From positions 1-8,684 of the forward strand of contig JAGRHB010000064.1 in the NCBI GenBank assembly GCA_020445245.1: 8,684 bases of DNA, given 5' to 3'. The stretch is from Gammaproteobacteria bacterium (GTDB taxonomy: Bacteria > Pseudomonadota > Gammaproteobacteria > Chromatiales > Sedimenticolaceae). The notes under the pieces are model-generated. The model did no database searches and was not told the origin of the DNA. It worked only from the letters and a program-made list of their open reading frames with translations. The number at the start of each line of letters is the position of its first letter. The first letter of the stretch is position 1. The translations under genes and the position numbers were made by a program. This document shows, piece by piece, positions 275-8,456 of the stretch.

Positions 275-1780
275 TCAACCCGGTTCCAACCTGCCGGATT
301 CGGTCGGATACCTTAGCCAGGCAGGCGCCCTGCACCTGATCCTGGCGGGACACGGCTGATCCGATTCCGCAATGTGCAGCACAGCACGCCCGTGCGACTG
401 CAATGTCCGGGCGAAGGAACCGAGCAGGGTGCGCGGAAAACCGAACCGTGCCCGTCGTCGATTGGGTGTTAGCGGCTTCAAACCGAGATGACGGCAGGTC
501 GCGTCATCCTCGGCGGCGTAGAGTTCGATGAATCGCCCCACCTGCATCAGCACGATCACGTCGGGATACCGCCGCCGACACGCCAGGTACTGGGACCTCA
601 CCGTACACGGATTGGGCGGCATCTCGTAGCGGGGCATGAGCACCGCGCGTCGATCGTCGTCGCTGAACAACCAGCGCAGGAATTCGAACCGGTCCCATAG
701 TGAGCGCCACAAGCGATGGCTGTCGGCGTGCGCGAAGTGCCCGCGGTACGAAGCCAGCACGGCGCGCAGGCGTCGTAGCGCCGGCAGATCGAATGTGATC
801 TCCGCCCATCCGTTGCATTCACGGACGTACCGGCGCCGGAACGCAATCAGGCGGTCGACGAGGTTACCGACGACCCGCCGCCGTACCAGCCGGTAATCCG
901 GGTACAGGATGTAACCGAGAAAATCGATGCCATTGCCGACCGGCCGCAGCCGGGTGTGCGCCGCGTTTAGCGTCAGGCCCAGCGATTCGTACAGATAGTG
1001 TTCGATATCCGCCCGCCAGCCATCAAGCTGCTCGCGGCTGTCGGCGAGCAGAATGAAATCGTCGCAGTAGCGCAGGTAGTGACGGCACCTGAGTTCGTGC
1101 TTGACGAACTGATCGAGGCCGTTGAGGTAGACGTTGGCGAAAAACTGTGAATTCAGGTTGCCGATTGGCAGGCCCCTGGCGGACCCGGTGTGGCGCAGAC
1201 TCTTATGGGCTGGCACCCGGCCGAGCAGGGACTGGCCGCTGCGCGCCACGTAGTCACTGGCACAGTCGTGGAACACCAGGCGCCGGGTAAGCCAGCGCAG
1301 CCAGGGATCGTCGATGCACGGTTCGAGCATCTCCCACAGCCGCGCCTTGTCGATGCGCATGAAGTAGTTGCGGATGTCGAGTTGCAGGTACCAGGCGGGA
1401 CGCTTGCCGCTGCGTGTCAGTTGATGCAGGAATGTCTGCAGCCGGTCGACCGCCCGGTGCACTCCTTTGCCCTTTCGGCAGGCGTAGGAATCATGGATGA
1501 ACACCCGCTCCCAGTGGCGCTCCAGATGATCGACGACCAGATGATGTACGATGCGGTCGCGAAAATCAGCGGCGAAGATCTCACGCAGCTTGGGTTTGCG
1601 GGTAACGAAGCAGACAGAACGACCGGGCCAGTAGCGCCGGCTGTTGAGCTCGTCCATCAGTTCCAGCAGCGCCAGCTCCTGGCGCGTCTCGAACTTGAGC
1701 GCATTGATGGTGTTGCGCTTGTTGCGCCGGCACCTCACATAGCACCGGTACAGTTCGGCGTAACTCACCGGCACGGGCAA
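275..1780 (-). CDS. DGR reverse transcriptase with C-terminal MutS_I-like domain
   Basis: This 501-residue protein is the RT of the DGR and would copy TR RNA into cDNA with errors opposite adenine. Seen in the sequence: an N-terminal RT region (about 5-130, including GRSVCFVTRKPKLREIFAADFRDR), the first catalytic Asp in LQLDIRNYF (D135), the DGR-typical motif LPIGNLNSQ (204-212), the catalytic YCDD box (238-241), and LGYILYP (288-294) leading to a thumb region to about 375. Residues about 389-475 read as the MutS N-terminal mismatch-recognition domain: QYLACRRRYPDVIVLMQVGRF, an aromatic/Glu pair in FIELY where MutS has FYE, LGLKPLTPN, a GFPR element and a closing AESDQP. The start is TTG at 1780; a TGA lies immediately upstream in frame and no ATG fits. 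GTG at 1774 or 1768 are alternatives. No good ribosome-binding site is visible. TR ends only 7 bp upstream. Confidence 0.93.
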   Translation of the reverse strand: MPVPVSYAELYRCYVRCRRNKRNTINALKFETRQELALLELMDELNSRRYWPGRSVCFVTRKPKLREIFAADFRDRIVHHLVVDHLERHWERVFIHDSYACRKGKGVHRAVDRLQTFLHQLTRSGKRPAWYLQLDIRNYFMRIDKARLWEMLEPCIDDPWLRWLTRRLVFHDCASDYVARSGQSLLGRVPAHKSLRHTGSARGLPIGNLNSQFFANVYLNGLDQFVKHELRCRHYLRYCDDFILLADSREQLDGWRADIEHYLYESLGLTLNAAHTRLRPVGNGIDFLGYILYPDYRLVRRRVVGNLVDRLIAFRRRYVRECNGWAEITFDLPALRRLRAVLASYRGHFAHADSHRLWRSLWDRFEFLRWLFSDDDRRAVLMPRYEMPPNPCTVRSQYLACRRRYPDVIVLMQVGRFIELYAAEDDATCRHLGLKPLTPNRRRARFGFPRTLLGSFARTLQSHGRAVLHIAESDQPCPARIRCRAPAWLRYPTESGRLEPG

Positions 1781-1787
1781 TCATTCT

Positions 1788-1923
1788 CAGGAGCGAACCG
1801 CCACGGCATACAGGCCATTGTTCTTATTGGTGTTGTTCTGGTTGCCGTTGTTCGTGTTGAAGTTCCACGCGTTGTTGGTATTTGGCGCATACGCCGTACC
1901 CGACCAGTACGCGTTCGACTGCA
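1788..1923 (-). repeat. DGR template repeat (TR)
   Basis: This 136-bp segment aligns without gaps to VR at 2673-2808 (offset 885). All 22 mismatches fall where the printed strand of TR has T, that is A in the sense strand. In VR these have become G (18), T (3) or C (1). About 40 sense-strand adenines are present, clustered in AAC/AAT (Asn) codons when read in the target's frame, for example NTNNAWNFNTNNGNQNNTNK. AAY codons cannot become stop codons by adenine substitution, a known design feature of TRs. The sense-strand 3' part (1788-1817) is identical to VR. Beyond 1788 the copies diverge. Confidence 0.97.
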
Positions 1924-2037
1924 ACTTGCCCAGCCACTTCACGGGGCCTTACCCCCCACCGGTTGGGAATCGGCCCTCGGGCCGTATCCCGCCCTGTATC
2001 GCCATACCCGTTTCCGGGTGGGATGGGCGCACAATGA
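1924..2037 (-). other. Non-coding spacer between avd and TR, probable structured part of the DGR RNA
   Basis: No convincing gene lies in these 114 bases. Two short hairpins can be seen: CGGCCC/GGGCCG at 1971-1984 and ACCCG/CGGGT at 2006-2019 with a TTTC loop. In characterised DGRs the RNA flanking TR is needed for cDNA priming and Avd/RT binding. Here TR almost touches the RT start, so upstream sequence is the likelier place for such structure. That role is inferred. Confidence 0.4.
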
Positions 2038-2460
2038 TCAATCGGCACGCTCGGCGCGGGGCCTGCGTTGGCGCCGCGCCGATTCCGGCCCCCGTACCTG
2101 CGCCCCGGCGCCGTCGCCGGCAACGCTCTTCAACCAACCCTCGTTCTGTCTGCAAACCTTCGTTACCTGCGTCACCGCGTGCTGGTAGCTCTTGAAACTC
2201 TTGAACGCCTGCGCCTCTTTGGCGATGCGGATCAGGATCAGCAGGTCATCCAGGCGCGCGCGCAGGTGACGCAGATGCGGCGCCTTGTCGTGCTCACTGT
2301 TGGCCCGCGCGATCAGGCCGACGATCTCTCGGCTCAGGTTGCGCAGCTCGCTGCCCAGCGTGTACTTGTGGTAACGCGAAAACCCGGCGACGGCCTGCTC
2401 GAACCACACCGCGACCTCCATCGCCTGCCTGTAGACCGGCAGGTGTTCGTAACGGGCCAT
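2038..2460 (-). CDS. avd: Avd-like DGR accessory protein (four-helix bundle)
   Basis: Avd is a small basic four-helix-bundle protein that binds the RT and the TR RNA and is needed for mutagenic retrohoming. This 140-residue product has the family's helical pattern: LPVYRQAMEVAVWFEQAVAG (7-26), LGSELRNLSREIVGLIARAN (35-54), LRHLRARLDDLLILIRIAKE (63-82) and a fourth helix around 86-111 ending QNEGWLKS. The signature GFSRYHKYTLGSELR (26-40) matches Avd/four-helix (S23-type) proteins. The start is ATG at 2460, with an in-frame TAG two codons upstream; no clear ribosome-binding site precedes it. The last 28 residues are a Gly/Ala/Arg-rich tail that extends beyond the usual fold and may reflect structured RNA constraints more than protein function. 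It sits between the target gene and TR, the usual place for avd. Confidence 0.9.
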   Translation of the reverse strand: MARYEHLPVYRQAMEVAVWFEQAVAGFSRYHKYTLGSELRNLSREIVGLIARANSEHDKAPHLRHLRARLDDLLILIRIAKEAQAFKSFKSYQHAVTQVTKVCRQNEGWLKSVAGDGAGAQVRGPESARRQRRPRAERAD

Positions 2461-2479
2461 CGACTAAGCAATGCGGCGA

Positions 2480-2538
2480 TGCAGGGGGACACCCCCTGCA
2501 CCCCCGCCCCCTCCCCGACCCTCCCCCGCGCGCGGGGG
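2480..2538. repeat. GC-rich palindromic elements between the DGR target and avd
   Basis: A perfect 9-bp stem (TGCAGGGGG 2480-2488, CCCCCTGCA 2492-2500, loop ACA) is followed by a C-rich stretch and a 16-bp perfect palindrome CCCCCGCGCGCGGGGG (2523-2538). The C-rich and palindromic part looks like GC-rich intergenic repeats common in proteobacterial chromosomes. It fills most of the 115-bp gap between the target stop and the avd start and could attenuate transcription or protect mRNA ends. Confidence 0.65.
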
Positions 2539-2575
2539 AAGGGGAAAGGACCGAAGCACACGAATCACCAAAGGA

Positions 2576-3334
2576 TCAACGCCGGCGGCGCACCGCGCCC
2601 CCTGCCAGGCCGAGTCCCAACAGGGCCAGGGTGCCAGGCACCGGCACCGTGCCTTCACAGCCGCCGGCATCGCAGGAGCGAACCGCCACGGCATACAGGC
2701 CACTGCTCTTACCGGCGCCGTCCTGGCGGCCGTCGTCCGTGCCGAAGCCCCACGCGCCGTAGGTACTTGGCGCATACGCCGTACCCGACCAGTACGCGAA
2801 CGACTGCATGTTGTCGAAAGGCCCGGCGTTCGTCAGGCCCCAGCCGGCTTGAGGGCCGCTACCAGAGTTGTCGTACAAAGGCGTATTGCCGAGCGCGCGA
2901 TACCACAGATCGGCCAGCTCGCCGGTGGCCAGGTCCACGTTGTAGCCGCAATCGGTGCCGGTGTAGGCGAAGTTGCAGCCGGACGACCCGGTATCGGTCA
3001 CACCCGGCAGGCGCCAGTCGTTGAATCCAAGGTAGTTCGCCGTGTTCATCGCGTCGATCCAGTGCAGCGCGGCGCCCCAGTTCATGTAACCGGACGTAAA
3101 GATCTGCTCGGCATAGCTCGCCGCGTAGCTGTCGCTCGGGTGATCCCCTAGATCGGTGCTGTAGGCCAGGCCGAAGGTGTTGCTCGCGGCCAGGTTGAAG
3201 TCCTTGATCCACATTTTGTTGCTGACATCGTCGGTAACCGTGCCGTCGCCATTGTCGATCAGCGTGGCCTGGGCGTCGAAGGCCAGCAGCGACAAGGCGG
3301 CTACCGCTGTCTTGAGGAAGGTTCTGCAATCCAT
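2576..3334 (-). CDS. DGR target protein: secreted DUF1566/Lcl-type lectin fold with PEP-CTERM-like tail
   Basis: This 252-residue exported protein is the one diversified by the DGR. A signal peptide covers about residues 1-23 (FLKTAVAALSLLAFDAQA). LIDNGDGTVTDDVSNKMWIKD (25-45) and NDWRLPGV (105-112) are hallmarks of the DUF1566/Lcl_C domain, a C-type-lectin-like fold used by many DGR targets. The VR encodes residues 176-220, starting MQSFAYWSGTAYAP. Variable residues are 179, 190, 192, 193, 196, 198, 200, 201, 203, 205-208, 210 and 211. The C-terminus VPVPGTLALLGLGLAGG plus RRRR is a PEP-CTERM-type sorting signal, with Val where Glu is usual. I chose ATG at 3334 because AAAGGA lies 8-13 bases upstream and the signal peptide follows; the frame opens further up, to 3448, through repeat DNA. 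Cys120/129 and Cys221/226 could form disulfides. Confidence 0.93.
   Translation of the reverse strand: MDCRTFLKTAVAALSLLAFDAQATLIDNGDGTVTDDVSNKMWIKDFNLAASNTFGLAYSTDLGDHPSDSYAASYAEQIFTSGYMNWGAALHWIDAMNTANYLGFNDWRLPGVTDTGSSGCNFAYTGTDCGYNVDLATGELADLWYRALGNTPLYDNSGSGPQAGWGLTNAGPFDNMQSFAYWSGTAYAPSTYGAWGFGTDDGRQDGAGKSSGLYAVAVRSCDAGGCEGTVPVPGTLALLGLGLAGGAVRRRR
2630..2642. other. Short near-perfect palindrome downstream of VR
   Basis: GGTGCC (2630-2635) and GGCACC (2637-2642) with one central base form an inverted repeat 31-43 bases beyond the sense-strand 3' end of VR, inside the PEP-CTERM-coding part. Some DGRs need a hairpin or cruciform just after VR for efficient target recognition. This one is farther from VR than the characterised examples, so the role is only a possibility. 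Confidence 0.35.
2673..2702 (-). promoter_or_regulatory. Candidate initiation-of-mutagenic-homing (IMH) segment at the VR 3' end
   Basis: The last 30 bases of VR (sense orientation) are identical to TR 1788-1817, whereas the preceding part is heavily substituted. In known DGRs an invariant segment at the 3' end of VR marks where cDNA integration starts. The next sense base differs (A in TR at 1787, C in VR at 2672), which is the expected TR/VR boundary. Confidence 0.7.
2673..2808 (-). other. DGR variable repeat (VR) in the target gene
   Basis: VR encodes the C-terminal part of the target's lectin-like domain. It is identical to TR at 1788-1923 except at 22 positions that are all adenine in sense-strand TR. 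Changes per codon: Asn to Phe (179), Ser (190, 210, 211), Tyr (192), Gly (193, 196, 198, 206, 208), Asp (200, 201, 205), Arg (203), and Thr to Ala (207). Framework residues such as YWSGTAYAP, AW and GLYAVAVRS are unchanged. Confidence 0.97.
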
Positions 3335-3422: not shown

Positions 3423-3455
3423 GTATTAGGCATGGCATGGCATGGCATGGCTCAA
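3423..3455 (-). promoter_or_regulatory. Weak candidate promoter of the DGR target, spacer made of repeats
   Basis: On the minus strand TTGAGC (3455-3450) could be a -35 box and TAATAC (3428-3423) a -10 box. The 21-bp spacer is longer than the usual 17 and consists of the pentanucleotide repeat. One fewer repeat unit would give 16 bp. Both hexamers match the sigma-70 consensus poorly. Confidence 0.25.
3431..3450. repeat. Pentanucleotide tandem repeat (CATGG)x4
   Basis: Four perfect copies of CATGG (printed strand) lie about 97-116 bases upstream of the DGR target start. Such short tandem repeats can change copy number by slipped-strand mispairing. It is outside every convincing coding sequence. 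Confidence 0.85.
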
Positions 3456-3491
3456 GTGTAAAAATATTGGACGCAGAAGGTGAAAAGGGGA

Positions 3492-3535
3492 AAAAGGGGT
3501 CGGTGACAAATGCGAGTCATTTCGATCGCAACCCG
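3492..3535 (+). repeat. REP-like repeat, copy B (left end of the RAYT unit)
   Basis: The head AAAAGGGGTCGGTGACAAA (3492-3510) is followed by a fold-back TGCGA (3511-3515) with TCGCA (3526-3530). It is a direct repeat of copy A (43 of 44 bases) and its head is an inverted repeat of copy C. The RAYT stop codon (3519-3517) lies inside the fold-back. Confidence 0.88.
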
Positions 3536-4212
3536 CCCGGCCGGCCCCGCGACGCATAACCGATGCCCCTGCCCAATGCGCACTCGATCATTGCGCGAAA
3601 GTCGTCGTCCCCTAACGGCATCGAGAACTGGCTGGCCCCACGAATCGCATGAATATCGGCCCGATGGAGTTCCTGCCTGAACAAATTCCTGTATGCCGCC
3701 TGCCGCATTACTTCGTTTTGACCCAAAGACAGGTAAATTGGATGCGGCTCCAATATCGACGATGCTTGGCCGTAACCGTTCTCCCGAAAGCTTGACCAGG
3801 CGTAGTCGCCCGGTTGCAACACCATGCCGGCACGAACGGGGTTGAGCTCTATGTACCGGTAGCAGGTCAGCAGGTATCGCTCGTGCTGAACCAAGCTCGA
3901 CTTGTGGCGGCTTTCCCAAAGGGTGCCGGTGCGAAGGCGTCGTTTGTTGACGTATTGCACGTAGCGACGGCCAATCGACTGCATCAGACGGGAGACGCCG
4001 TCGCTGACCGACGGTGTCACCAATAGATGGACATGGTTGGTCATCAGCACGTAAGCATGCACGGATACGCCATAACGCTTCGCACCATCGCTCAGGCAGG
4101 CGAGATAGAAGCGGTAGTCGTCGTCGGTGAAGAAGGCGGCTTGCCGATTGTTGCCGCGGTGGACGACATGGCAGGGCACTTCGGGCAGATGCATCCTTGG
4201 CTTGCGAGGCAT
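3517..4212 (-). CDS. REP-associated tyrosine transposase (RAYT, Y1/HUH family)
   Basis: This is a 231-residue single-strand DNA transposase of the IS200/IS605-related TnpA_REP type, which nicks and rejoins REP hairpins. Seen in the sequence: N-terminal MPRKPRMHLPEVPCHVVHRG followed by NNRQAAFF (1-28), the HUH metal-binding motif in MTNHVHLLV (H60 and H62), GRRYVQYVNKRRLRTGTLWE (81-100), and ERYLLTCYRYIELNPVRAGM (111-130), which holds the candidate catalytic Tyr (113, 118 or 120). I chose ATG at 4212 because the conserved N-terminus begins there and AAAGGA precedes it by 7 bases; the frame stays open to 4404 through the REP end. The stop lies in REP copy B, so the last codons are written by the repeat. 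The gene appears intact. Confidence 0.9.
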   Translation of the reverse strand: MPRKPRMHLPEVPCHVVHRGNNRQAAFFTDDDYRFYLACLSDGAKRYGVSVHAYVLMTNHVHLLVTPSVSDGVSRLMQSIGRRYVQYVNKRRLRTGTLWESRHKSSLVQHERYLLTCYRYIELNPVRAGMVLQPGDYAWSSFRENGYGQASSILEPHPIYLSLGQNEVMRQAAYRNLFRQELHRADIHAIRGASQFSMPLGDDDFRAMIECALGRGIGYASRGRPGGLRSK

Positions 4213-4275
4213 GGCGAATCCTTTCGACCATTGCGGGATGTTCAAGGCTAAAGGAACGAGCTGCGAAATTCGACT

Positions 4276-4309
4276 CGCGAATGCTTCGCGTTTGTCACCG
4301 ACCCCTTTT
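4276..4309 (-). repeat. REP-like repeat, copy C (right end of the RAYT unit, inverted)
   Basis: The 19-bp head lies in reverse orientation at 4309-4291 and runs directly into a perfect hairpin CGCGAA-TGC-TTCGCG (4276-4290). Head plus hairpin is the classical REP layout. The hairpin sequence differs from those in copies A and B while the head is identical. Confidence 0.85.
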
Positions 4310-4433
4310 AGGCTTTTCGATCCGGCACAGCCCACCACTGGCCCGGAGCTGCCGCAATACGCCCACGCCGCGGCAGCAGGTCGCAGAGTTTTGATTTCCC
4401 TCAAAGATCTCCAACAAAAACCTGGGTTAAAAA

Positions 4434-4439
4434 TATATT
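4434..4439 (+). promoter_or_regulatory. Candidate -10 box of the sulfur-globule-like gene
   Basis: TATATT (5 of 6 matches to TATAAT) lies 40 bases upstream of the start codon at 4479, in an AT-rich patch that contrasts with the GC-rich surroundings. No good -35 box is seen at 17 bp, so the gene may use another sigma factor or an activator. Confidence 0.3.
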
Positions 4440-4478
4440 AGGGAAAAGCCATATAGGCAGATTGGTAAGGAGAGGATC

Positions 4479-4868
4479 ATGAAAAGACACCTGAAATTCT
4501 CACTGCTGGCAGGCGTGCTGCTGGCGCTCACGACCCAGGCCTCGGCCTGGTGGGGCGGCGGCTGGAACCCCTACGACCCATGGGACCCGCGTTACTGGGC
4601 GGAAGAATTCTTCGGCGGTAGTGGCTGGGGTGGCTACGGCGGCGGCCCGTGGGGTTACGGCGGCGGACCCTGGGGCTACGGTGGCCCATGGGGAGGCTAC
4701 GGTTACCCCTATTACGGCGGCTATGGCTACGGACCCTATGGCTATGGCGTGCCCTACTACGGCGGCTACCGCTCATACTTAGGCGGCTGGGGCTATGCCC
4801 CGTACGCGGCCCTGCCTGCGCAGACCGCAACCACCCAGGCCGGCAAATCGAAAACCTCCGACAAGTAA
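4479..4868 (+). CDS. Secreted Gly/Tyr/Trp-rich protein, sulfur-globule-protein-like
   Basis: This 129-residue protein has a signal peptide (MKRHLKFSLLAGVLLALTTQ, cleavage probably after ASA at 23). The mature part starts WWGGGW and is dominated by Gly, Tyr, Trp and Pro, with repeats of GGPWGYG (about 55-70) and YGGYGYGPYGYG (79-90), ending in a hydrophilic KSKTSDK. The composition, size and export signal match the small structural proteins that coat periplasmic sulfur globules in purple sulfur and related bacteria. The HdrB-like gene upstream supports a sulfur-oxidising host. Low-complexity Gly-rich proteins can also be unrelated cell-envelope proteins, so the call is by resemblance. The ribosome-binding site AAGGAG (4467-4472) is strong, and the gene has its own terminator, so it is monocistronic and probably highly expressed. 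Confidence 0.7.
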   Translation: MKRHLKFSLLAGVLLALTTQASAWWGGGWNPYDPWDPRYWAEEFFGGSGWGGYGGGPWGYGGGPWGYGGPWGGYGYPYYGGYGYGPYGYGVPYYGGYRSYLGGWGYAPYAALPAQTATTQAGKSKTSDK

Positions 4869-5299: not shown

Positions 5300-6724
5300 A
5301 TGCCCGACAACCACGCCCCTGATCGCGAACGCGAAACGGCCCTGAAACATTCCGTCAGGGACGGGGCTGCCTATTCGGTGATGACGGGTGCCGGCGAGAG
5401 CTATCTGTCCGCCTATGCCATTCACCTGCGTTTCACCGAGCCGCAGATCGCCACACTGGCCTCGATCCCACCGCTGATCGGCGCGATCGCGCAGTTGTTC
5501 TCGACCTGGCTGCATCGCCGCTGGCGCATCGGCCGCGGACGTATCATCCTTGCCGGCGCGCTCACCCAGGCGGTGAGTTGGCTGCCGATCATGCTGGTGC
5601 CGCTTCTGTGGCCGGAAGATCAGGTCGCGGCGCTGATCTTCTGGGTAGTCGCCTACCAGGTGTGCGGCAACATCATCTCCCCGCACTGGCCGTCGCTGAT
5701 GCGCCACCTGGTGCCCGAGAAGGAGCGGGGACGCTATTTCTCGCGGCGAACGCGGGTCACCACGCTGGTCGGCTTTACCGCCCTGATCGCCGCCGGTGGC
5801 GTGCTCGAGGGGTTCAGGACCCACAGTGATGCCCTGTACGGTTTTCTGCTGCTGTTCGCGCTGGCCGCAATGGCGCGCATGATCTCCGGTTACTATCTCA
5901 GCCGCCTGCCCGATCGCAGCCCTCGAGGCGATGACATACAGTACGGGGCCCTCCCGTTGATACCGGTCTGGCAGGCGAGTATCCGCCGATCCCCCTACGC
6001 GCGTTTTCTCTTCTATTACGCCGGAATGTGTTTCGCGACCGCGGTCGCCGCGCCATTCTTCGCGGTACACATGTTGCGCGACCTGCAGTTCACCTACCTT
6101 GAGTTCATGGCGATCACCGCCGCCTCCGTGCTGGTGCAGTTCCTGACACTGAACGGCTGGGGCCGCGTCTCCGACGCCTTCGGCAACCGCCTGATCCTCG
6201 CGATCACCGGATGGATGGTCCCGTTCGTACCGCTGCTGTGGGTGTTTTCGGACAATTTTCTTTACCTGCTGGCGATACAGGCGTTGTCCGGGCTGGCTTG
6301 GGGCGGCTTCGCATTGAGCGCCGGGAGCTTTTTCTACGATCTTTCGGGCGATGCCGACATGGCGGCACCGATCACTACGGCCAACGTGACCAATGCGCTG
6401 GCCGCGTTCGCCGGCGCTCAGCTGGGAGCGGCGGCGGTTCTGTGGATGCCCGACTGGGCGCACAGCGACCAAGCCTGGTCGTTCGAGTACCCGCTGTTCG
6501 GCGTATTCCTGCTGTCGTTCGCGACCAGGCTCGCGGTGGCCGTCGTTTTCGTCCCGGTGCTCAGGGAGGTACGCCAGGTGCGGCGCGCCTCACCTCGCCG
6601 GGTGATCTTCCGCTTCACCCGATTCTCCGTGTTCTCCGGCGTGGGCTTCGATATCGCATCCGTATGGCGGCCACGCGAGCGGCGACGCCCGTATAAGACA
6701 GGGGACAAGTCACACGACGTTTAG
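5300..6724 (+). CDS. Major facilitator superfamily (MFS) transporter
   Basis: This 474-residue polytopic membrane protein has about 12 hydrophobic segments (approximately 26-46, 50-70, 81-103, 109-130, 153-172, 177-199, 236-256, 265-285, 297-314, 319-343, 362-383, 397-420). MFS-like features are the charged loop after helix 2 (HRRWRIGRGR, 72-81), EKERGRYFSRR (140-150) and GRVSDAFGNR (288-297), which resembles the repeated motif A of the second half. The C-terminal 50 residues are a basic cytoplasmic tail. The substrate cannot be inferred. The start at 5300 has no clear ribosome-binding site; translational coupling to the small membrane protein is possible. The TAG stop (6722-6724) overlaps the stop of the convergent peroxidase remnant. 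Confidence 0.85.
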   Translation: MPDNHAPDRERETALKHSVRDGAAYSVMTGAGESYLSAYAIHLRFTEPQIATLASIPPLIGAIAQLFSTWLHRRWRIGRGRIILAGALTQAVSWLPIMLVPLLWPEDQVAALIFWVVAYQVCGNIISPHWPSLMRHLVPEKERGRYFSRRTRVTTLVGFTALIAAGGVLEGFRTHSDALYGFLLLFALAAMARMISGYYLSRLPDRSPRGDDIQYGALPLIPVWQASIRRSPYARFLFYYAGMCFATAVAAPFFAVHMLRDLQFTYLEFMAITAASVLVQFLTLNGWGRVSDAFGNRLILAITGWMVPFVPLLWVFSDNFLYLLAIQALSGLAWGGFALSAGSFFYDLSGDADMAAPITTANVTNALAAFAGAQLGAAAVLWMPDWAHSDQAWSFEYPLFGVFLLSFATRLAVAVVFVPVLREVRQVRRASPRRVIFRFTRFSVFSGVGFDIASVWRPRERRRPYKTGDKSHDV

Positions 6725-7512
6725 CCCGCGCATCGCCAGGAGGACTTGCGCCGCATACCCATGCCGGCAATCCCGATCGACAGTAACAGCAGGACGCCCG
6801 GCTCGGGGACGAAAAACACGTTGGCCTGCAGCCCGGTGATGCCGGTATTGCGCATGATGATCGCGCTCAGGGTCGATCCCTCGATGAATTCCATCCATTC
6901 GGTCTCAAACATTCCGTTCTGATACCAGAAACGGTCGCCGTCACGCAGGCGACTGAACTGATCGCCGACGATTGCCGAGAACAGCTCGCCCAGCATGCCC
7001 CCGTTGACATGGGCTTCTGCGAGACCGCCGATCCACAGGTCGATGTCGCGGACGTCGTCGTACACGCTTTGCAACGCATCGATGATCGCATCTGCCATGA
7101 TGCCGTCGAGATCGCTCCAATCGTTGAAGGTCGTGTATCCCATTTGGTTTCCGAACATCACGTCGCGCATTTCCACGTAGCTCGGCAGGCCGTGATCGCG
7201 ACCGCGCTGCATGTTCAGTGCGGCGAGATCGAAGCCCATCGGCCCAAACAACAGATTGCGCACATCGTCCACCAGGAACGGATCCACCTCCTGTCCAAGC
7301 TGGCTGACCAGCCCCCGAAGGACCGGATCTATGCCACCGTTGGCATCGGTAAGCACGGTCTCCGGGGTGAAAAATGCGTCGCGTAGCGCAAGATGACCAG
7401 CGGCGATCTCGTTGCCATTGGCGTCGAGGCGCATCAGCACCGACGACAGCGTCGAATGACCAAATCGATAGGCCGCCGTGCTGAACTCGTTGGCGATACG
7501 ACGAAGCCGCCT
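6721..7512 (-). pseudogene. 5'-truncated animal-type haem peroxidase with PEP-CTERM tail
   Basis: The open frame from 7512 to the TAA at 6723-6721 encodes the C-terminal part of an animal-type (peroxidasin/myeloperoxidase-like) haem peroxidase. It begins RRIANEFSTAAYRFGHS, which aligns with the proximal-haem-histidine segment of that family. It continues with GGIDPVLRGL, LNMQRGRDHGLPSY and IDLWIGGLAE, then QFSRLRDGDRFWYQN. It ends in VPEPGVLLLLSIGIAGMGMRRK, a standard PEP-CTERM sorting signal. The N-terminal half with the distal His and Arg and the signal peptide is missing: an in-frame TGA (7515-7513) precedes the homology, and the hairpin of the next gene starts there. An ATG at 7440 exists, but starting there loses even the haem ligand. 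A 5' deletion is the simplest explanation. Confidence 0.8.
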
Positions 7513-7527
7513 TCAGCCGACGGCGGC
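7506..7527 (-). terminator. Hairpin after the YkgJ-type gene, possible terminator
   Basis: GCCGCC (7506-7511) and GGCGGC (7522-7527) form a 6-bp GC stem with a 10-nt loop, starting 11 bases after the minus-strand stop at 7539. The following bases in that direction are only moderately T-rich, so termination would be weak. It coincides with the point where the peroxidase remnant begins. Confidence 0.45.
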
Positions 7528-7538
7528 CTGTCGTCCGA

Positions 7539-8456
7539 TCAGCTGTCGGAGCAGCCGGAGGTCTCCTGGCGCATGTCCGACTCGGCCTTGGCGTTGCGCG
7601 CCTCGACCTCTGCTTTCGAGCGGGCCTCCCAGACCTCTTTTCGTGACTCGACCCGCTTTTCCCAGGCGCCACTGTTTTCCGGGATCGTCTTCTCCCCGAA
7701 CAGCGCCTGGCGCATCAAGCGGTTGCCCAGCTTGATCAGCGCGATATCGTCTCCGGCCACCTCGGCGTACGTCTCCGGGGGCAGGTTGTAGGACTGCTTG
7801 AAGTTGTCGCTGAGCACGAAGCGACGCAGCATGTCAAAGTTGAATGACGCCATGAAGAACAGCTGCAGGCTCATCTCGTTGGGCTTGCCGACACCCGGGC
7901 CACCGGATTTTTTCTTCAGGATCAGCTCGTACCAGCTGCGGTTGAACTCGTCGTATTCGGCGACACGCTGCTCCTTGCGGTAGTCGCGGACCGTAATCTC
8001 GCGCGCCTCTTCGTGGCCCCTGCAGTGATCCTCCTGGACCAGGGAGTATTGCTGCCTGGCCTCGTAGGTGTCCTTTTCGCGCATGTTCAACAATGCAACG
8101 GGGTAGTAGCGGCAAACCGTCGGGCGATCCTCGTAGACACCGCAGCCGTTGTCGCCGTCGAGGAGCAGGCAGGCACCATCGTTGTCGGTACGCAGCTTGA
8201 TGCCCGGCACCCCGTCGGCATCGAGCTGGAACGGCACCGTGTGCTTCTTGAGGAATTCTTCGGAATTCATGCCGAGACGCTTCTGCAGGCGCAACACGTC
8301 ATACGGCGCCAGCGTGACATCTGCATGTTTGCAGCAGGCGTTGAAACAGGAGATCCCCTTGTAGCACTGGAAGCGGATCACGCTGTCTTCGGTCAGCAGT
8401 GCCGGCACTGCCGGGCTGGCGAACTGTTGGGGGATGTCGAGTTTGTCTTCGCTCAT
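7539..8456 (-). CDS. YkgJ-type cysteine-cluster protein
   Basis: This 305-residue cytoplasmic protein has the cysteine pattern of the YkgJ/CxxCxxCC family (putative Zn- or Fe-S-binding). The cluster is C31, C37, C41 and C42 (FQCYKGISCFNACC), followed by ACLLL (C96), NGCGVYEDRPTVCRYYP (C105, C115) and C145. The region 46-75 (VTLAPYDVLRLQKRLGMNSEEFLKKHT) is also typical. The reaction is unknown; members are annotated as metal-binding or as flagellin N-methylase-like. The C-terminal 45 residues are highly charged and probably form a coiled coil (WEKRVESRKEVWEARSKAEV). The start ATG at 8456 is supported by GAGGAA 8 bases upstream. It has its own promoter (TATAAT at 8548-8543) and an approximately 80-nt leader. 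Confidence 0.85.
   Translation of the reverse strand: MSEDKLDIPQQFASPAVPALLTEDSVIRFQCYKGISCFNACCKHADVTLAPYDVLRLQKRLGMNSEEFLKKHTVPFQLDADGVPGIKLRTDNDGACLLLDGDNGCGVYEDRPTVCRYYPVALLNMREKDTYEARQQYSLVQEDHCRGHEEAREITVRDYRKEQRVAEYDEFNRSWYELILKKKSGGPGVGKPNEMSLQLFFMASFNFDMLRRFVLSDNFKQSYNLPPETYAEVAGDDIALIKLGNRLMRQALFGEKTIPENSGAWEKRVESRKEVWEARSKAEVEARNAKAESDMRQETSGCSDS

Follow-up and report, generated by a model that had tools for sequence, protein, structure and literature searches.

Detailed knowledge of how a diversity-generating retroelement (DGR) chooses its template RNA and where its cDNA starts comes from one phage system, according to the available portion of PMC12875486. HRDC and MSL are named as known DGR accessory proteins, and 'domains fused to RT' are counted as a class, in the accessible part of PMC10053308. 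DUF1566 is given as a common target domain of human-gut and other DGRs (PMC4159848, excerpted text), and salt-marsh sulfur-oxidising Gammaproteobacteria, including Chromatiales, are described as carrying active DGRs with adenine-diversified CLec targets (PMC10686091, excerpted text). MutS-like DGR accessories are already known. Their primary source, for MSL, is reportedly Wu et al. 2018 in NAR.

Here we analysed the window, a whole stretch of 8,684 nucleotides from a gammaproteobacterium of the Chromatiales. The locus at 275-3334 is a complete, intact DGR in the order target-avd-TR-RT, and we consider it very likely that the cassette is a cellular, recently active DGR from a lineage with a MutS-like domain at the RT C-terminus. 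An earlier note on this DNA had described a complete DGR with RT and Avd intact and in canonical order, and this description held: the RT, Avd and target frames are open, and RVT_1, bAvd and Lcl_C matched above their Pfam cut-offs. The range it gave was right in its coordinates, but its description omitted the 87-nt leader RNA and the MutS_I domain fused to the RT; the PEP-CTERM tail downstream of VR was likewise absent from it. The parts of the locus are listed in Table 1.

Table 1. Features of the DGR locus and its neighbour in the window.
Feature	Coordinates	Strand	Evidence
Target (variable) protein, 252 aa; Lcl_C domain at residues 31-219 and PEP-CTERM tail	2576-3334	-	Pfam, AlphaFold2, fold match
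VR, target residues 177-220, internal to the gene	2673-2808	-	TR/VR alignment
PEP-CTERM sorting signal (predicted), residues 229-252, downstream of VR	2579-2650	-	PF07589, TIGR02595
Avd accessory protein, 140 aa	2038-2460	-	bAvd PF22296, phrog_3206
Structured leader RNA (predicted), 87 nt (88-position model), three inner helices, between avd and TR	1955-2041	-	covariation
Leader 5' strand AUCAUU of the long-range helix	2033-2038	-	pairing in aligned loci
TR 3'-flank strand AAUGAU of the long-range helix	1780-1785	-	pairing in aligned loci
TR; similarity to VR reaches 1928	1788-1923	-	repeat finder, ungapped alignment
DGR reverse transcriptase, 501 aa, TTG start at 1780	275-1780	-	RVT_1, phrog_1423, motifs, fold match
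MutS domain I at RT C-terminus, residues 396-474	359-595	-	PF01624
F417-I-E419, position of the F/Y-x-E motif of MutS	524-532	-	homologue alignment
REP-associated (RAYT/Y1) transposase, neighbour outside the DGR	3517-4404	-	PF01797, 48.7 bits (cut-off 23)

The repeat pair and the target protein

A computed ungapped alignment of TR with VR (offset 885) contained 22 mismatches in 136 nt, all 22 of them at TR adenines (40 A in TR), in agreement with the adenine-only differences that had been claimed from a hand alignment; the chance of all 22 falling on A is ~9e-15. The changes comprised 18 A>G, 3 A>T and 1 A>C. The earlier count of 15 altered codons, 14 of them Asn in TR, was also reproduced, with 14 Asn (AAY) codons and one Thr (ACC>GCC), and every AAY codon of TR was altered in VR (14/14). 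The repeat finder placed the pair at 1785-1928 and 2670-2813 with 83% identity, and in this wider frame 23/25 mismatches were at A, the remaining two lying near the 1928 edge. Adenine-directed mismatches were likewise counted in relatives (19/20 in L002, 14/16 in L003, 17/18 in L004) and in the four loci found blindly with the leader model described below (25/27 in L060, 17/18 in L061, 19/20 in L062, 23/24 in L063). A search of IMG/VR with a 26-mer from the 3' terminus of TR/VR gave 0 exact matches. A candidate DNA hairpin downstream of VR had a folding z of -2.49.

The A>G share was higher in the window VR (18/22) than in three relatives (19/50; Fisher p 8e-4). An enzyme property of the RT was considered for this bias and rejected; it is instead ascribed to this VR copy, because P0121, a metagenomic relative of the target, carries Tyr, which requires A>T, at several of the codons that are changed in the window VR.

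The AlphaFold2 model of the target (pLDDT 83.6) had as its best PDB fold match the C-terminal domain of Legionella Lcl (8q4e, prob 0.99, E 0.017), with C-lectin fold matches weak, ranked behind 8q4e and none at E <= 0.001. Its C-terminal tail, VPVPGTLALLGLGLAGGAVRRRR, has the Pro-Glu-Pro-type motif, hydrophobic stretch and basic tail of a PEP-CTERM signal and scored 26.2 bits against PF07589 (cut-off 20.7) and 23.0 bits against TIGR02595 (cut-off 16). This tail hints at the destination of the diversified lectin-like domain; no paper in the literature searched combined 'diversity-generating retroelement' with 'PEP-CTERM'. Predicted sorting tails differ within the clade, the L003 target having an IPTL-CTERM tail and the VR-bearing frame of L063 ending without a sorting tail of that type. 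Exosortase was present in 5/5 relatives' genomes versus 127/369 genomes (34%) of the class sample, an apparent enrichment that is only suggestive because the five relatives were chosen by their RT. Avd matched bAvd (52.2 bits, cut-off 40) and phrog_3206, 'Avd protein of DGR' (5.5e-23), and scored 50 bits against NF033474, under the cut-off of 80.

The MutS-like domain of the RT

The RT carries GLPIGNLNSQ and YCDD, the LPIGNLxSQ-type and YxDD motifs of the DGR clade, and matched RVT_1 with 71.1 bits and phrog_1423 at 1.1e-110. Its best Foldseek match was the BPP-1 DGR RT (8ub7, E 5.7e-24, TMt 0.87), and the database protein P0001 is the same RT with a start two codons after the TTG. At the C-terminus, MutS_I was matched with 25.2 bits (cut-off 20.6), and PDB sequence matches of this region were Taq MutS (1ewq) and MSH6 (2o8b), whose FYE aligns with F417-I-E419. 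A full MutS is not present: domain I was the only MutS part matched, the clamp and ATPase domains are absent and the protein ends at residue 501. The full-length RT fusion was not seen in phages or plasmids, where 141 and 3,146 records matched, none with 80% query coverage in one place.

F/Y417 and E419 correspond to the residues that contact the mismatch in MutS. A MutS-like domain on a mutagenic RT would link targeted hypermutation with mismatch recognition, a link testable via these two residues. Among the 120 listed homologues, the closest of 6,410, E419 was found in 120/120, and position 417 was F in 96, Y in 23 and L in 1. Such conservation (F/Y in 119/120) argues against the domain being a bystander, a nucleic-acid-binding tail without mismatch function, which we regard as possible but somewhat doubtful. 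The bystander reading draws on loci in part of the clade where the motif has been lost or altered (GNRVALF, GNCLEVH, RGKKID) and TR/VR differences are still adenine-directed (12/14 in L016, 17/18 in L039, 16/16 in L052, 18/20 in L053). It also draws on an E. coli DGR reconstitution in which, according to the available text of PMC12875486, mutS deletion left an 18-nt-insertion reporter unaffected, that insertion not being a MutS substrate.

The leader RNA and its helix with the TR flank

Covariation pointed to a structured leader between avd and TR. Across 8 loci, 98.0% of cells were paired with 24 double-change cells, a value reached by 0/500 shuffles, and in 13 distinct rows double changes occurred in 14/19 pairs (47 cells, 0/500 shuffles); the 'further pair types' measure for the 8 loci was not above shuffles (127/500). 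Because a motif search among the fetched loci supplied the first 8, conservation within this set is not independent; L016, L039, L040, L052 and L053, too, were selected following a motif or model match (model E 1.7e-4 for L040, 3.1e-3 for L039, 0.35 for L052, and none at E <= 1 for L053). Independent evidence consists of the covariation controls and four blind matches: when 336 genomes from a different phylum were searched by RNA alone with the leader model, R1, there were 4 matches, all just upstream of a TR and an RT with F/Y-x-E at its C-terminus (the fetched stretch ended within the domain, with the motif visible). At the thresholds applied, the leader matched nothing in Rfam 15, and single-sequence folding of leader plus TR was uninformative (z -0.91).

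The leader model search did not detect a leader at L018, L019/L024, L038, L041, L049, L051 and L055, nor at the decayed L005 and L006, and matches were weak at L042 (E 0.76 and 0.2), L046 (E 0.42) and L054 (E 0.05). Also without a leader match are L001/L034, which begin within the RT, and L037, which is cut by a contig end. Ten RTs are without the extension; among them, L021, L022, L044, L047 and L048 yielded no TR, and L047 has <200 nt upstream of the RT core. C-terminally extended RTs do not all have the leader (none in L018 and L041, weak in L042 and L046), and the motif and the predicted leader are not strictly tied, because some leader-bearing RTs have lost or changed F/Y-x-E (L016, L039, L040, L052, L053).

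A predicted helix with compensatory changes joins the leader 5' strand, AUCAUU, to the TR 3' flank, AAUGAU, at the RT start; the leader's helix strand begins with the last base of the avd stop codon. In 17 loci, 98.0% of cells were paired, with 11 double-change cells (0/500 shuffles), versus <=61.8% paired in slid controls, while the 'further pair types' measure was not above shuffles (500/500). When distinct helix types were counted once, there were 5 types, and 2/120 re-pairings did equally well. The 17 loci include L052 and L053 despite their weak or missing leader-model match, and leave out L046, in which a 6-bp pairing of leader and flank is visible but shifted by one base. TR ends at 1788 and the RT starts at 1780, and a BPP-1-type structured spacer 3' of TR was not found in the window. 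For 16 of the 17 leader loci, those with a measured TR, the distance from TR end to RT-core model start was 24-64 nt at 14 loci and reached 90 and 127 nt at the other two. Codon identity was mildly raised through a large part of the first half of the RT, with no particular rise at its start, and a structured spacer element may still lie within the RT ORF.

From these features we infer a function for the leader. The avd-leader-TR transcript would fold so that the leader presents the 3' junction of TR to the RT-Avd complex and thereby fulfils, from the 5' side of TR, the role of the 3' spacer in BPP-1; adenine-mutagenic cDNA would start at the TR 3' end and replace VR. The MutS-like domain may grip the leader/TR RNA or the cDNA/VR heteroduplex with its mismatches, and may protect it from the mismatch repair of the host. 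The mutated Lcl/C-type-lectin-like domain would reach the cell surface or extracellular matrix via the exosortase (PEP-CTERM) route, its 15 variable residues forming a selectable binding face. Jointly, and with a confidence that falls somewhat short of even, we propose a permuted template RNA in which a conserved ~88-nt scaffold lies 5' of TR and a long-range helix of 5-7 bp returns the TR 3' junction to it. The scaffold strand would form an RNA homoduplex that primes mutagenic cDNA, in place of the BPP-1 3' spacer, and the MutS-like domain would have co-evolved as a clamp on either that homoduplex or the mismatched duplex of cDNA and VR.

The helix may instead control translation rather than cDNA priming, because GGAG...start also resembles an RT ribosome-binding site; the RNA would then be template when closed and RT mRNA when open, the helix acting mainly as a switch that masks the GGAG-to-start spacer. 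In keeping with this, AAUGAU in the window sits exactly between GAG, which may be Shine-Dalgarno-like, and the TTG start, the L002 strand runs into an ATG start, and most of the 17 aligned loci retain GGAG. However, the inner helices of the leader, which touch no ribosome-binding site, show both conservation and covariation, and the weak leader match of L042 (521-625) appears to follow TR rather than the RT start, because it ends beside TR (627-757) and 764 nt from the RT core. On balance a translational switch seems unlikely. A leader that serves chiefly as a reverse transcription stop, its stable fold ending the cDNA, would suit a position on the 5' side of TR, reached last by the RT, but a roadblock alone needs no pairing between the leader 5' strand and the TR 3' flank, and we consider this role distinctly improbable.

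Activity, mobility and comparison with known systems

P0121 (from an ENA source) differed from the window target at 16/252 residues, all within VR, and was identical at all 208 residues outside it. They comprised every Asn codon (14/14) together with the ACC codon and a single GGC codon. Although indirect as a sign of mutagenic retrohoming, this VR-only divergence supports continuing activity, which had earlier only been inferred, and points to a genuine, recently active DGR. The refutation test of the earlier note, non-adenine differences in other isolates, meets a caveat: in a protein-level comparison, Gly202>Cys in P0121 (1/16 VR differences) and Ala180>Val in the more distant P0122 (1/14) are not at TR adenines.

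The RAYT neighbour scored 71.2 bits against NF047646, under the cut-off of 80. Movement of the DGR as a composite element bounded by RAYT transposon ends is suggested by a 75-nt direct repeat, D2, flanking it at 196-270 and 3492-3566, and by a 19-mer in three copies (0, 0 and 1 mismatch; 0.01 expected). The exact end motif was found in 3/369 class genomes, none among the 9/369 with a DGR RT match, and in 0/6 loci compared, and the 196-270 flank resembles a RAYT 3' remnant; with end-motif and DGR RT genomes disjoint, composite mobility is unsupported and very improbable. It is also very improbable that the DGR is a fossil with a clean signature left from past activity: the adenine signature by itself gives no date, and decayed relatives are known (L005, with YCAD replacing YCDD, no TR found and MutS_I lost; L006/L009, interrupted in frame by a TAG and with no repeat pair of 70 nt or longer found), but every window ORF is open, and the identical backbone and wholly different VR of P0121 need recent rewriting or very strong VR-only selection.

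The leader represents a second RNA architecture, supported by compensatory changes, present in two phyla and unmatched in Rfam 15 at those thresholds, allowing direct comparison with the one phage DGR in which template choice and cDNA start are known in detail, and R1 provides a sequence handle that finds DGRs without the RT. For the salt-marsh gammaproteobacterial DGRs, the available part of PMC10686091 makes no mention of a MutS-like domain or leader RNA. MSL (PF01624) DGRs, as in the window, link MutS domain I to a DGR; the accessible part of PMC10053308 describes no F/Y-x-E motif, leader RNA or such fusion, all three of which the window DGR has. BPP-1 (mtd-avd-TR-brt; NC_005357) shares gene order, Avd and RT fold with the window, and its TR/VR pair is similarly adenine-directed (18/22 mismatches, our own alignment). 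Its brt (1756-2742; solved chain 328 residues) is, judged by length, too short for the fused MutS_I of the window RT. The leader model found nothing convincing on BPP-1 (best 8 bits), which has 144 nt from TR to brt and 0 nt from avd to TR, whereas in the window the arrangement is reversed, with the spacer upstream of TR. The BPP-1 target is C-type-lectin-like, as the window target is, but VR1 occupies the extreme 3' end of mtd (3443-3576 of 3438-4583) and the window VR is internal. DUF1566, which we take to be the same Pfam entry as Lcl_C, is a domain shared with described DGR targets; in the window the VR-bearing Lcl_C is followed by a PEP-CTERM tail.

The cassette and its diversified target

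The window cassette is a well-made example of an established DGR type. As the earlier note had claimed, it was complete, with target, avd, template repeat (TR) and reverse transcriptase (RT) all on the minus strand, and a computed alignment of the core TR and variable repeat (VR) reproduced its count of 22 mismatches in 136 nt, every one (22/22) at one of the 40 TR adenines (p ~9e-15 under random placement). Its further count of 15 altered codons, 14 of them Asn, was also borne out: 14/14 Asn (AAY) codons of the TR were changed together with one Thr codon. A>G accounted for 18 of the 22 changes in the window VR and for 19 of 50 in three relatives. P0121, a database relative of the target, seems to be without this bias, which therefore looks particular to the window copy of VR.

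Features of the DGR cassette in the window
Feature	Position	Strand	Transcription order
Target gene	2576-3334	-	first
VR	2673-2808	-	
avd	2038-2460	-	second
Leader	1955-2041	-	
Long-range helix, leader 5' strand	2033-2038	-	
TR (template repeat)	1788-1923	-	third
Long-range helix, TR 3'-flank	1780-1785	-	
Reverse transcriptase	275-1780	-	last

Searching proteins for relatives of the target brought up P0121, a 252-aa sequence of ENA source with 94% identity, and P0122, with 87%. P0121 differed from the window target at 16 residues, all within VR (residues 177-220): 15 lay at the Asn codons (14/14) and the Thr codon, and the remaining one at a Gly codon without a TR adenine. The 208 residues outside VR were identical. 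P0122 showed 14 differences in VR and 19 outside; of those in VR, 12 fell at Asn codons, one at the Thr codon, and the last, Ala>Val, away from adenine. The expectation that VR would change only at TR adenines in related strains, assessed here by comparing proteins, was upheld at 15/16 residues in P0121 and 13/14 in P0122 and failed at one residue in each. From these protein sequences, we interpret the VR differences as a sign that VR was rewritten recently, between populations.

The target carried Lcl_C and PEP-CTERM, both above Pfam cut-offs. Its structural model (pLDDT 83.6) best matched the C-terminal domain of Legionella Lcl (8q4e; E 0.017, Foldseek prob 0.99); C-type lectins ranked behind it at insignificant E-values. 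VR was followed by a 32-residue stretch ending in the sorting signal, and diversification and anchoring are therefore separate parts of one protein. The same plan was found in relatives L002 (PEP-CTERM) and L003 (IPTL-CTERM); the L063 target did not share the plan with a sorting tail. Exosortase PF09721 was present in 5/5 relatives' genomes versus 127/369 genomes of the class sample.

Around the cassette, RAYT-type end repeats were seen at 196-270, 3492-3566 and 4280-4309, with the DGR lying between a complete RAYT (3517-4404) and an incomplete RAYT 3' end in direct orientation. In genome G088 the exact RAYT end motif was present five times. The window also held an apparently 5'-truncated animal-haem-peroxidase fragment with a PEP-CTERM tail (6721-7440; profile 327-530 of 530) and a 129-aa Gly/Tyr/Trp-rich protein of secreted appearance that matched neither Pfam nor NCBIfam (4479-4868).

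A MutS_I domain at the RT C-terminus

The window RT combined RVT_1 with MutS_I at residues 396-474, over cut-off, and its AlphaFold2 model (pLDDT 92.4) best matched the BPP-1 DGR RT (8ub7, 328-residue chain; E 5.7e-24). This RT cluster is represented on 19 contigs. Among the best 120 of 6,410 RT homologues with E <= 1e-20, PF01624 was listed for 84 (hand count of precomputed annotation), and in an alignment of these 120, which included the window's own protein, E419 was invariant (120/120), position 417 held F (96), Y (23) or L (1), G415 was kept in 119/120, and R442 and G447 in 120/120. A PDB sequence search with the domain matched Taq MutS and MSH6, their FYE aligning with this F/Y-x-E motif. 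The F and E of MutS FYE contact the mismatched base. More distant clade members had altered or lost the motif (GNCLEVH in L016; GNRVALF in L052 and L054; GNRVAAF in L053). Extensions positioned like MutS_I and without F/Y-x-E were seen in L018, L041, L042, L052, L053 and L054, possibly a repurposed sister domain. MutS-like (MSL) proteins are already known as DGR accessories (PMC10053308), and their association with DGRs is therefore not new.

Several relatives had unusual or decayed loci. L005 (Desulfobacter latus, 5998-7254) was a decayed DGR with catalytic YCAD, MutS_I lost and no TR found. The DGR RT of L006 (5881-7191)/L009 (Thiorhodococcus mannitoliphagus) had an in-frame TAG near its C-terminus and ~50 unmatched N-terminal residues, and no TR/VR pair or leader was detected at the locus; it is another decayed DGR relative. 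L003 (Thiohalocapsa marina) held two avd-TR-RT copies in direct orientation (1-2369 and 5891-8259) around one target and an ORF that we take to resemble an integrase. The two TRs were identical over 124 nt. The first copy began at the contig end, so the duplicate is possibly an assembly artefact. The L003 RT was without ~24 residues near the N-terminus compared with relatives.

A leader RNA and a long-range helix around TR

A conserved non-coding stretch between avd and TR was common to the window, L002, L003 and L004. We built a model of this leader (88 positions, 19 pairs) from eight loci, in which 98.0% of cells were paired, with changes on both sides in 8 pairs (24 cells). None of 500 shuffles reached the observed cells paired, double-change cells or covariation score; 3/500 reached the double-change pairs and 127/500 the further pair types, and slid versions were at most 52.7% paired. 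With 13 distinct rows, an alignment fitted to the model and so biased towards it, double changes extended to 14/19 pairs and 47 cells (0/500 shuffles), and 12/500 shuffles reached the further pair types. In neither count did P1, the outer helix, show a double change. Rfam 15 gave no match across the window, none for the leader stretch up to E = 1, and none in ten relatives at gathering cut-offs.

The leader strand AUCAUU was complementary to AAUGAU directly 3' of TR, and in diverged loci the two strands changed in step: ACCACU/AGUGGU (L016), AUCACU/AGUGAU (L039, L040, L063) and GUCACU/AGUGAC (L052). Across 17 loci 98.0% of cells paired, with double changes in 3/6 pairs (11 cells); L053 and L062 each had a single mismatch. 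Again 0/500 shuffles reached the cells paired, double-change cells or score; 40/500 reached the double-change pairs, 500/500 the further pair types, and slid controls paired at most 61.8%. The first 13 loci held 5 distinct strand pairs, 2/120 re-pairings of which scored equally high, so the independent helix events are few.

We propose that leader and long-range helix would turn the TR RNA into a closed particle of defined form for the RT-Avd complex, the helix adjoining the point where cDNA would have to start. The MutS-like domain may bind either the leader/flank duplex or a mismatched cDNA/VR duplex. The leading rival reading is that the helix controls translation of the RT, since it spans the interval from a Shine-Dalgarno-like GGAG to the RT start codon. 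Another is that the leader serves only to terminate cDNA.

Leader distribution and layout relative to BPP-1

Leader matches occurred in 11/16 genomes selected for holding a DGR RT relative, 10 of them at the known RT locus. The match in G813 (C624:4278-4385, E 4.2e-8) lay on a different contig from its RT locus. An RNA-only search under stricter filters of 336 genomes from the phylum of G004, a Desulfobacter genome, gave 4 matches (E 1.4e-13 to 1.0e-4). All four lay directly upstream of a TR and a DGR RT with F/Y-x-E in its C-terminal extension; all four RTs matched a MutS-like domain profile (E 1.1e-18 to 9.5e-11), the analysed stretch ending inside the domain, and TR/VR differences were adenine-directed at each (25/27, 17/18, 19/20 and 23/24).

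On an RT tree of 32 loci, 17/17 leader loci had a long C-terminal extension, and no leader was found at the 10 RTs without one. An extension or remnant with no clear leader was seen in L041, L042 and L018, in L005, a decayed locus, and in L001, whose sequence begins inside the RT. Leader loci were not monophyletic, with 6 changes on the tree, of which well-supported branches require 3 or more. In the part of the DGR literature searched, the leader was described nowhere, and we claim no priority; nor was a description found in the searchable literature of a sub-lineage combining a MutS_I-fused RT with an upstream template-RNA scaffold, which we regard as a DGR variant.

TR was measured in 16/17 leader loci, and in 14 of these 16 the distance from TR end to the start of the RT-core model was 24-64 nt; the other two gave 90 and 127 nt, and the TR alignment of L050 ends early. 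Three leaderless loci with an extension gave 71, 764 and 1,099 nt, and the 6/11 extension-less loci with a TR found gave 32, 128, 192 (BPP-1), 428, 546 and 745 nt. L045, at 32 nt without extension or leader, breaks the pattern. In the BPP-1 cassette the leader model scored no more than 8 bits anywhere. There, avd lies directly against TR and a 144-nt spacer stands between TR and brt; according to PMC12875486, this spacer folds, recruits bRT-Avd and provides the cDNA-priming adenine. The window has these spaces in the reverse order.
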